From Clostridia bacterium (GTDB lineage Bacteria; Bacillota; Clostridia; Caldicoprobacterales; Caldicoprobacteraceae): DNA of 64,000 bases. The notes beneath the pieces are model-generated. The model searched no databases and was not told the origin of the DNA. It was given only the letters and a program-made list of their open reading frames with translations. The stretch lies in contig PKRC01000001.1 of assembly GCA_017577715.1 (NCBI GenBank), forward strand, positions 124,001 through 188,000, read 5' to 3'. Shown here piece by piece: positions 14,322 to 27,585 of this stretch. The position numbers and the translations under genes were made by a program. The stretch's first letter is position 1. Each line of letters opens with the position of its first letter.

Positions 14322-14347
14322 TTAAAAAGGCTCCTTCTCGGAGCCTT
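14322..14347 (-). terminator. Terminator after speD
   Basis: On the minus strand AAGGCTCC/GGAGCCTT (8 bp, loop of 5) is followed by TTTTTAAT. It sits three bases after the speD stop and separates speD from the downstream PBP gene on the same strand. Confidence 0.85.
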
Positions 14348-14349
14348 AG

Positions 14350-14727
14350 TTAACTGCTAAAATCCTTTACAATATGCATTTCCCCGAGTCCGCGTTCTAC
14401 GTTCATTTCGTAAATCTTGTTAGCTTCCAGCTTTTGAGCGATGAGGGAGGCCGCTTTTTTTGGATCAATGCGTTTACCGCAGGTAAAGACGTCAATGCTG
14501 GCATACCCGTGTTCGGGGAAGGTGTGGATGGCCAAATGGGATTCGGAAACAATTACTACTCCCGATACGCCCTGAGGCGCAAACTGGTGAAAGGTTACTT
14601 CCCGCACTTCTGCTCCCGCTTGCAACGCAGCCTCAGTCATCATCTTTTCAACGAACTTGATGTCATTTAAAAGTTCCCGATTGCATCCCCATAGTTCTAA
14701 AATGCAGTGTCTCGAATAGGTATCCAT
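14350..14727 (-). CDS. speD: S-adenosylmethionine decarboxylase proenzyme
   Basis: A 125-residue class 1B AdoMet decarboxylase. The proenzyme cleaves itself to form a pyruvoyl cofactor and makes decarboxylated AdoMet, the aminopropyl donor for spermidine. The cleavage motif [13 protein letters not shown] is present; with ATG 14727 as start the pyruvoyl-forming serine is S63, the family's usual position, which supports this start over TTG 14733. H68 and the later Cys in FTCGKRIDP are the conserved processing residues. AGGGGG (14740-14735) is 7 bases upstream. No spermidine synthase gene is adjacent. A long structured leader precedes it. Confidence 0.96.
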
Positions 14728-14734
14728 AAGCAAA

Positions 14735-14884
14735 CCCCCTTTATACGAAATTTTTAGTATCCGCTTACGGGGGTAGGTTAGTACAACTGATGCCCTAGTC
14801 CCTCCAATAAGGGACGGCTAGTTCAGCAGATGTCCCAACCCTTTGATAAGCGGATACTCTTTTTAGCCAAAACCTCGCATGCTG
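14735..14884 (-). promoter_or_regulatory. Structured speD leader RNA, riboswitch-like, class not recognised
   Basis: Read on the minus strand, a perfect 12-bp helix (14858-14847 with 14767-14756) encloses two near-repeat domains of ~40 bases (14850-14811 and 14811-14770). Domain 1 folds as GGGAC-ATCT-GCT-GAACT-AGC-C-GTCCC. Domain 2 folds as GGG-CATCA-GTT-GTACT-AAC-CTA-CCC. The inner stems GCT/AGC and GTT/AAC differ by a compensatory C-G to T-A change. An alternative hairpin (GTCCC 14815-14811 with GGGAC 14802-14798, extended by CTA/TAG) excludes both. CCCCC (14773-14769) is complementary to the SD GGGGG (14739-14735). Structure seen in sequence; ligand and mechanism are inference. Confidence 0.7.
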
Positions 14885-14890
14885 CACAAT

Positions 14891-14919
14891 ACTTTAACAT
14901 AAATCAAGAAAAAAATCAA
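14891..14919 (-). promoter_or_regulatory. Promoter of speD
   Basis: On the minus strand TTGATT (14919-14914), 17 bases, TAAAGT (14896-14891). It predicts transcription from about 14884, so the whole structured leader is transcribed with speD. Confidence 0.6.
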
Positions 14920-14964
14920 TCTCCTTTGCCAAATTTTCGAGCAGATTTAGTGACATCTTTGTGC

Positions 14965-14993
14965 TTGCAATAATATATATAATGGTATATACT
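14965..14993 (+). promoter_or_regulatory. Promoter of the FtsH-type protease gene
   Basis: TTGCAA (14965-14970), 17 bases, TATACT (14988-14993). It lies beyond the speD leader, so the plus-strand gene does not need that RNA. The stretch 15001-15066 is then a ~65-base untranslated leader in which I see no strong structure. Confidence 0.7.
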
Positions 14994-27314: not shown

Positions 27315-27585
27315 TGACGATAAAATAAATATGGGAAAGACGATGAAGAGGAATAGTAAATAGGGAGCGAGCCTATTCAGAGAGGTAGCGGTTGGTGCGA
27401 GCTGCCAAGGCGGCCCTATTGAATCCACCTCGAAGTCGGTTGGGAAATAACCAATCCCGGTGAAGTCCGTTATCCTCAAATGAGGCCCGGACGCTTCCGG
27501 CCGAGATAAGGCGGATGTTTCTGGGCGAAACAAGGTGGCACCACGTGAAGATATTCCCGTCCTTGGCTTACAAGGACGGGTTTTT
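27315..27585 (+). promoter_or_regulatory. T-box riboswitch with serine (UCC) specifier
   Basis: The T-box signature AAGGTGGCACCACG is at 27532-27545, followed by the terminator stem CCCGTCCTTG (27556-27565) with CAAGGACGGG (27571-27580) and a T-run. Stem I has the expected specifier arrangement GAA-TCC-ACC, with TCC at 27424-27426 just before the ACCTC that closes the helix. TCC is a serine codon, matching the downstream aminotransferase and serA. Uncharged serine tRNA would pair with the specifier and the UGGCA bulge and allow read-through. Family knowledge plus direct motif reading. It fills the 378-base gap between yunB and the aminotransferase. Confidence 0.94.

Follow-up and report, generated by a model that had tools for sequence, protein, structure and literature searches.

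Judged from sequence comparison, the leader RNA of speD, the AdoMet decarboxylase gene, is best explained, with moderate confidence, as a metabolite-sensing switch of speD translation, the hairpin of which would have been duplicated in Clostridia. The leader (about 150 nt, minus strand, about 14880-14735) was analysed in a 64,000-nucleotide stretch of Caldicoprobacteraceae DNA, here called the window. It appears to belong to a family of gene-control RNAs that has so far gone unrecognised. The element occurs chiefly in Bacilli, which could not be seen in the preliminary description, made from the letters of the window alone.

The gene speD (14727-14350, minus strand) encodes a 125-aa protein identified as AdoMet decarboxylase by matches to TIGR03330 (E 1.1e-42) and PF02675 (E 1.5e-41). 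Immediately 5' of it lies the leader, followed by a divergent ftsH-like gene (AAA and Peptidase_M41 domains) from 15010 on. Two spermidine-synthase-family genes were located in the same genome (G000:C24:115364-115900 and G000:C20:200121-200663), on contigs other than that of speD. A promoter-like sequence on the minus strand (14891-14919) consists of TTGATT (14919-14914), a 17-nt spacer and TAAAGT (14896-14891). Its hexamers and spacing are kept in the seven family sequences, the -10-like hexamer being TACAGT in one of the 7. It is weak, with 8/12 consensus bases, and absent from the output of the promoter scan. From this sequence transcription would start near 14885, upstream of the element; a start downstream of 14770 had been named in the preliminary description as a finding that would refute its reading of the leader. 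No terminator-like sites were found inside the leader by a terminator scan, which was counted toward translational control. An intrinsic-terminator-like hairpin was found 3' of speD (14327-14347, minus strand; one found versus 0.7 expected from shuffles, weak alone), which suggests a single-gene transcript.

The closing helix P1 is formed by a perfect 12-bp pairing, AGUAUCCGCUUA/UAAGCGGAUACU, of 14858-14847 with 14767-14756, which was confirmed as previously described; RNAfold appends one U-G pair, so that the strands of P1 extend over 14846-14858 and 14756-14768 (this and all following features of the leader are on the minus strand). P1 is framed in the MFE fold by an outer helix P0, AUGCGAGGUUUU, with strands at 14869-14880 and 14743-14754. 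Inside P1, a joining strand CAAA (14842-14845) precedes the helix P2, which in the predicted folds is formed by GGGUUGG (14835-14841) and CUAACCU (14775-14781). The AAA of the joining strand and the next GGG constitute an SD-like stretch able to pair with a C-run, CCCCC (14769-14773); both AAAGGG and CCCCC are invariant across 13 Clostridia sequences. The C-run was proposed earlier to be complementary to the speD Shine-Dalgarno sequence, and this holds: CCCCC (14773-14769) is opposed by GGGGG (14739-14735), which is separated by 7 nt from the ATG at 14727. Repeat unit 1 (GGUUGG-GA-CA-UCUGC-UG-AA-CUAGCC, 14816-14840) is probably homologous to the single hairpin of the Bacilli leaders, based on profile and fold comparison, and repeat unit 2 (GACUAG-GG-CA-UCAGU-UG-UA-CUAACC, 14776-14800) has its own outer stem broken in the window, with UAG/CUA only. 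Between them a variable middle hairpin P3 (CUA..GUCCC / GGGAC UAG, 14795-14821) forms the middle stem in the best fold of 13/13 Clostridia sequences, its stem sequence varying between species. The two near-repeats of the preliminary description were found as CATCTGCTGAACTAGCC and CATCAGTTGTACTAACC, which agree at 13/17 bases, while its count of 15/20 was not reproduced; its alternative third hairpin is the middle hairpin, present in the sequence as GTCCC/GGGAC. The leader folds more stably than its dinucleotide shuffles (z -4.2, 0/200 shuffles), as does the trimmed leader (z -5.0, 0/200).

Covariance-model searches against Rfam 15, the check that had been set for the leader, gave no family matches at the window leader or at the leaders of 24 related loci. 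The leader is thus structured, conserved and, as had been stated, of no recognised class. The lone weak match (ctRNA_pT181, E 6.5) lies upstream at 14903-14988, outside the leader. The sole Rfam match of the window at gathering level is a T-box leader (RF00230, 114 bits) at 27334-27567 on the plus strand.

All seven Caldicoprobacteraceae genomes sampled carry the element, each immediately before speD. Of the 30 genomes of the order, the 23 outside the family gave no copy with a covariance model constructed from these 7 leaders (R1); among 391 Clostridia genomes R1 revealed 6 further copies, all directly before speD. In a set of 27 stretches, forward matches of R1 with E 8e-14 or better were present in 10, and the other 17 were discarded as chance. 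Across families the flanks and P1 vary, and AAAGGGUUGG, CAUC, GCUG and RGUUGxACURACCUxCCCCC are almost constant. Searched over 398 genomes of the phylum, R1 gave one weak match outside its own genome (E 0.015), in another class, and this turned out to be a shortened version of the element, likewise preceding speD, ACUUAAAGGGUUAGGACCUCUUCGGACUAACUUUCCCCCGUGGU.

The class with this single-hairpin form is evidently Bacilli, based on gene content and on one leader region with a 94% match to Anoxybacillus amylolyticus. A pattern derived from the shortened form matched 180/398 genomes of the class, in 82/145 genera, and read backwards as a control gave 4 among the matches listed. Of the loci matched, 84 were examined (31 with locus sequence and 53 picked from the listed matches for family spread); speD is next in 83 (30/31 and 53/53), and one is truncated by the end of its contig. 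The 84 loci gave 68 distinct rows in an alignment (A7), in which the positions fixed by the pattern, AAAGGGTT.G and CT.AC[CT]..CCCC, are invariant by construction. The Bacilli consensus is AAAGGGUURGGACCUCnnnGGACUAACYUUCCCCCGUGG.

A second covariance model, R2, was constructed from the 68 distinct Bacilli leaders without Clostridia. At E 0.001 or better it identified 187/378 genomes of the class, with a single match per matching genome among the matches listed. The window leader, too, was recovered with R2, at E 3.7e-6 when 78.5 kb including the whole window were searched and at E 1e-4 in its genome, and the window RNA and the Bacilli RNA were therefore regarded as homologues. When applied to 245 Clostridia genomes, R2 recovered 10 already-known leaders and three matches, in G101 (E 7.6e-5), G215 (0.026) and G012 (0.063), which were taken as chance, SpeD being absent from the loci examined; that of G101 sits in G+C-rich sequence which by look is coding-like. 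With a Bacilli leader-plus-speD query, a copy was found on the 258-kb plasmid pDSM15939_1 of Anoxybacillus amylolyticus (L201, NZ_CP015439.1), which carries a block of mutM, coaE, GAPDH, speD and nrdR with the leader; the leader is unannotated there, in a gene table which has no RNAs at all. No viral contigs with SpeD or the core pattern were found.

Fifty Bacilli genomes, hand-picked from 218 without the pattern, comprised 28 with a gene of the AdoMet decarboxylase family and 22 without. From the 28 genomes 30 speD-family loci were obtained, in which R2 found 7 clear leaders (E < 1e-9) and 5 weak ones (E 0.003 to 0.8). Four longer AdoMet_dc proteins were left out and 26/30 loci inspected. By eye, 15 of 19 other loci keep a P1 of the AUUCACU/AGUGAAU type and an anti-SD run, with a shorter or different hairpin, and 12 of these 15 also have a P0 of AGGAACC/GGUCCU. 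No such leader was seen in four of the 26 loci (L164, L165, L168 and L169). In L171, L173, L178, L181 and L193, P0/P1 and the anti-SD run are kept and the conserved hairpin is missing, so that the hairpin is not required in every speD leader. These five and L192, divergent leaders without the conserved hairpin, have a CUCCU-type anti-SD run in place of CCCCC, and in most of the six a hairpin of the CCUAGC/GCUAGG type stands beside the SD and overlaps the 3' strand of P0; it is perhaps a second expression platform. At L173, Bacillaceae-1 RNA (RF01690) was detected above the gathering cut-off at 2372-2438, within an RNase P RNA match.

Pairing of P1 is supported by covariation, in agreement with the expectation that paired positions would be conserved in related speD leaders. 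In the 68 Bacilli leaders P1 had 123 two-sided cells, versus a shuffle mean of 42 (0/500 shuffles), and a covariation score of 0.303 versus 0.144 in shuffles and <=0.089 in slid controls; neither this score nor the percentage paired was reached by any of 500 shuffles. Not above chance were the number of P1 pairs with two-sided change (6 of 7 versus 5.3 in shuffles, 205/500) and that of further pair types (25 versus 23.7, 148/500). Outside P1, the flanks of 70 Bacilli leaders pair as P0 at a mean of -10.1 kcal/mol versus -7.7 kcal/mol for swapped flanks, with 0/300 swaps as low.

For P2 the support comes from folding and conservation instead of covariation. It pairs in 98.7% of cells and is nearly invariant: among its 9 pairs, 2 are constant, 4 change on a single side, 3 deviate solely through unpaired cells and none has two-sided change; a double change from U-A to G-C was read by eye in one divergent leader, L180. 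In MFE folds of the 68 trimmed Bacilli leaders P1 was present in 60/68 and the 7-pair register of P2 (at least 5 pairs) in only 11/68. Pairing of GGG with CCC was seen in these folds, and in many of those inspected GGG pairs with the C-run instead of in the P2 register. On the loop side, each base of GACCUC and GGA is kept in 65 to 68 of the 68 rows, at positions which were free in the search pattern. Columns 21 and 41 of A7 (base 5 of the stem and the Y that follows CUAAC) co-vary, with A/U in 57 rows, G/C in 9, G/U in 1 and another combination in 1; this joint change may reflect one event or a tertiary contact. The compensatory change that the preliminary description had read in the inner stems of the repeats was not borne out: GCT/AGC of repeat 1 occurs in just 2/13 Clostridia sequences, and GTT/AAC of repeat 2 is pairable in 13/13 and almost invariant, so that the inner stems show no covariation.

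The origin of the two units was investigated by scoring with the Bacilli profile. In 6/6 Clostridia outside the family, the two repeats have inner halves that match, in the right order, the halves of the single hairpin (500 letter shuffles each; p 0.000-0.026 for the 3' half and 0.002-0.026 for the 5' half); in 0/7 Caldicoprobacteraceae members were both halves below p 0.05. A lone Clostridia repeat can form the Bacilli hairpin, with a six-pair stem, a small internal loop, two pairs (CA/UG, versus CC/GG in Bacilli) and a five-base loop starting with UC. Such a hairpin is possible for both units in G135 and for unit 1 in several other Clostridia. One long hairpin, composed of the outer halves and the middle stem, is favoured over separate pieces by 4 to 13 kcal/mol in 13/13 Clostridia sequences, the advantage being 8 to 13 kcal/mol in the 7 family members. 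The tandem element that had been proposed is thus supported in kind, by the matches in 6/6 Clostridia outside the family, but not as separate domains in the window: two tandem domains are disfavoured as the fold of the window RNA, the long hairpin being more stable in 13/13 and the stem of unit 2 broken. In a Bacilli leader that is otherwise canonical, L167 of G801, part of the hairpin loop is replaced by 54 bases, apparently as an extended stem, which indicates that the loop tolerates extension. Based on these comparisons, we conclude that Clostridia probably gained the second hairpin unit by duplication and that this copy now forms an extended apical stem in Caldicoprobacter. The speD leader would thus be a case of a regulatory hairpin duplicated and then remodelled.

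The pairing of the anti-SD run with the SD was analysed in Bacilli loci; of 26 loci, 21 entered a sliding test and 20 a run/SD test, for which the segments were located by eye. The run (C-run or CUCCU-type) that immediately precedes the 3' strand of P1 can pair with the SD in these 20 leaders at a mean of -11.4 kcal/mol, versus -8.4 kcal/mol for letter-shuffled runs, and 0/200 shuffles were as low as the real mean. The complementarity amounts to -10 kcal/mol or lower in 18/20 leaders and is weak in L192 (-7.5) and L182 (-5.8). Covariation between run and SD was not significant, swaps of the SD among the 20 leaders being as good in 343/2000. In the sliding test the best SD complement of L185 lay elsewhere than expected, and for L167 the wrong SD was picked automatically.

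Folds with the SD paired and with the SD free are within 5 kcal/mol of each other in 77/83 Bacilli leaders, with a median difference of 0.0, energies being those of nested folds and blind to a pseudoknot in which P1 and the helix of C-run and SD coexist. Near-equal folds suit a switch in which the C-run chooses between the upstream SD-like sequence and the true SD. In the 13 Clostridia the difference ranged from -2.8 to +10.7 kcal/mol. The four leaders of Caldicoprobacter prefer the fold with a free SD, by 5.8 to 10.7 kcal/mol, so that switching there would require strong stabilisation or co-transcriptional folding. The translational output proposed in the preliminary description is supported by both the complementarity and the energies. 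With respect to a riboswitch, a conserved structured leader with covariation was found through P1, and an expression platform overlapping the conserved structure through complementarity and energies, the anti-SD run lying inside the closing helix.

The proposed mechanism is that of a cis-acting RNA switch in the 5' leader of speD which would control translation initiation. P1, with the outer P0, frames the strongly conserved hairpin, the 3' side of which ends in the C-run; by sequence this run has two alternative partners, the speD SD and an SD-like GGG in the 5' half of the hairpin, and in most leaders the two folds are close in energy. With the C-run held by P1 and the hairpin, the SD would be free and SpeD made; with the C-run on the SD, either through opening of P1 or through a pseudoknot across the P1 loop, translation would stop. 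The conserved hairpin and the joining strands may, less certainly, bind a small molecule of the AdoMet/spermidine pathway, the binding of which would exert feedback on spermidine synthesis. Spermidine is a first guess for this ligand, on the model of the known spermidine riboswitch with its end-product control, followed by AdoMet or decarboxylated AdoMet. Since the element was seen only before speD, a signal near AdoMet decarboxylation, or SpeD itself, is favoured.

As judged from these sequences, the leader is probably a riboswitch for a metabolite of the spermidine pathway, and the main rival to this reading is a protein-bound leader, in which the hairpin would bind an RNA-binding protein, most simply SpeD in autogenous repression, with the same anti-SD switch below. 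This we consider rather unlikely. Autogenous leaders often stand before one gene only, as the element does in the 83 loci and with its one R2 match per matching genome, and the hairpin, being short, nearly invariant and furnished with GGA motifs, could plausibly be bound by a protein; on the other hand, the SpeD proteins encoded downstream form two groups, with 39-45% and 58-74% identity to the query, so that one surface kept in both would be needed, and the model is without any known partner protein. A fixed translational attenuator or RNA thermometer, where access to the SD is set or temperature-tuned without a ligand, is improbable. Caldicoprobacter, the genus of the window, is thermophilic, which was counted for a thermometer, and two near-equal folds would fit a thermosensor too, but elements of this kind should conserve their pairing more than their bases, whereas here the loop-side bases GACCUC and GGA are kept and P1 is free to change.

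The partly palindromic core, together with the weak matching of R1 to the opposite strand at the same place, could indicate a DNA operator, an inverted repeat recognised by a transcription factor. This is very improbable, given that the element lies downstream of the inferred promoter, that the arms of P1 change jointly with complementarity kept, which DNA binding does not need, and that the complementarity of C-run and SD exceeds that of shuffles. Attenuation by an upstream open reading frame occurs in other AdoMet decarboxylase mRNAs, and the window leader has a 5-codon ATG frame, ATGCGAGGTTTTGGCTAA, from 14880. By eye the length of this frame shifts or the frame is lost in relatives, stops occur in two frames of the core, and the aligned stretch is one base different in 4/68 Bacilli rows; a peptide-coding leader is therefore given even less weight than an operator. 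The least credible explanation is a diverged spermidine riboswitch (a SAM-I variant) or another SAM riboswitch. It would fit the shared pathway, as spermidine riboswitches precede polyamine genes (accessible text of PMC10853860), but no SAM-family match was found with E up to 10 at the window leader and up to 5 and 2 in the 24 related loci, and a hairpin within a closing helix differs from the four-stem SAM-I architecture given in the same text.

Returning to the riboswitch reading, its fullest form is a new widespread class in which a spermidine-pathway metabolite (spermidine, AdoMet or decarboxylated AdoMet) would exert feedback on the translation of speD in roughly half of Bacilli genomes, probably with those of the B. 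subtilis group among them, through a nearly invariant hairpin that is duplicated in Clostridia and has an extended stem in Caldicoprobacter; we regard this full form as evenly balanced between right and wrong. The candidate, which precedes speD in 187/378 Bacilli genomes sampled, close to half, and probably also in the B. subtilis group, is testable at once; speD and speE deletion strains of B. subtilis were used in the spermidine riboswitch work (accessible text of PMC10853860). According to the same text, polyamine riboswitches were claimed, doubted and then shown in one narrowly distributed class, and its authors expect more classes. No report of a speD leader structure was found in the literature, in a search thin on subscription papers, so that a report elsewhere is possible, and the word speD is absent from the main text of the survey papers PMC8632094 and PMC6429828.

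In an Hfq pull-down from B. subtilis, an RNA of 79 nt from the gap between speD and gapB had an enrichment ratio of 14.1; in the accessible part of PMC3574147 it is listed under 'Unknown or speD leader region', and the authors state that in signal-responsive leaders it is almost always the aptamer on which the peaks lie. In G921 GAPDH (NF005830, E 1.3e-203), the element and speD follow in order, and a GAPDH-like frame was found in the same place in G1052 and G591 (by eye) and in the annotated Anoxybacillus record. Based on the gapB-speD gap shared with G921, the 79-nt RNA is probably the same RNA as the speD element, which would then account for this uncharacterised Hfq-enriched RNA; unlike the element, it is listed in that part of PMC3574147 as a peak only, without structure, family or function.

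The spermidine riboswitch is a four-stem variant of the SAM-I aptamer known from 13 examples before polyamine genes (accessible text of PMC10853860). The window element is likewise a cis-acting leader RNA of a polyamine gene, speD, with end-product feedback as a guess here; unlike that riboswitch, it consists of a closing helix and one conserved hairpin, or its duplicate, and matches no SAM-I model. The potE and odc1 motifs are also candidate RNAs before polyamine genes, but, in the accessible text of PMC8632094, before genes other than speD. In some Clostridia the speD leader probably has two homologous units, as tandem riboswitches have, whereas the units of the window no longer fold separately in the favoured structure. 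Tandem riboswitches are known, for example, for glycine. SAM-II and preQ1-II are translational riboswitches that sequester the SD, and the speD leader resembles them in its small putative aptamer and in the anti-SD pairing or pseudoknot with the SD, but differs in its conserved core and in being without an Rfam match. On these comparisons of sequence, the speD leader is best called a new candidate among translational riboswitches or protein-responsive leaders.
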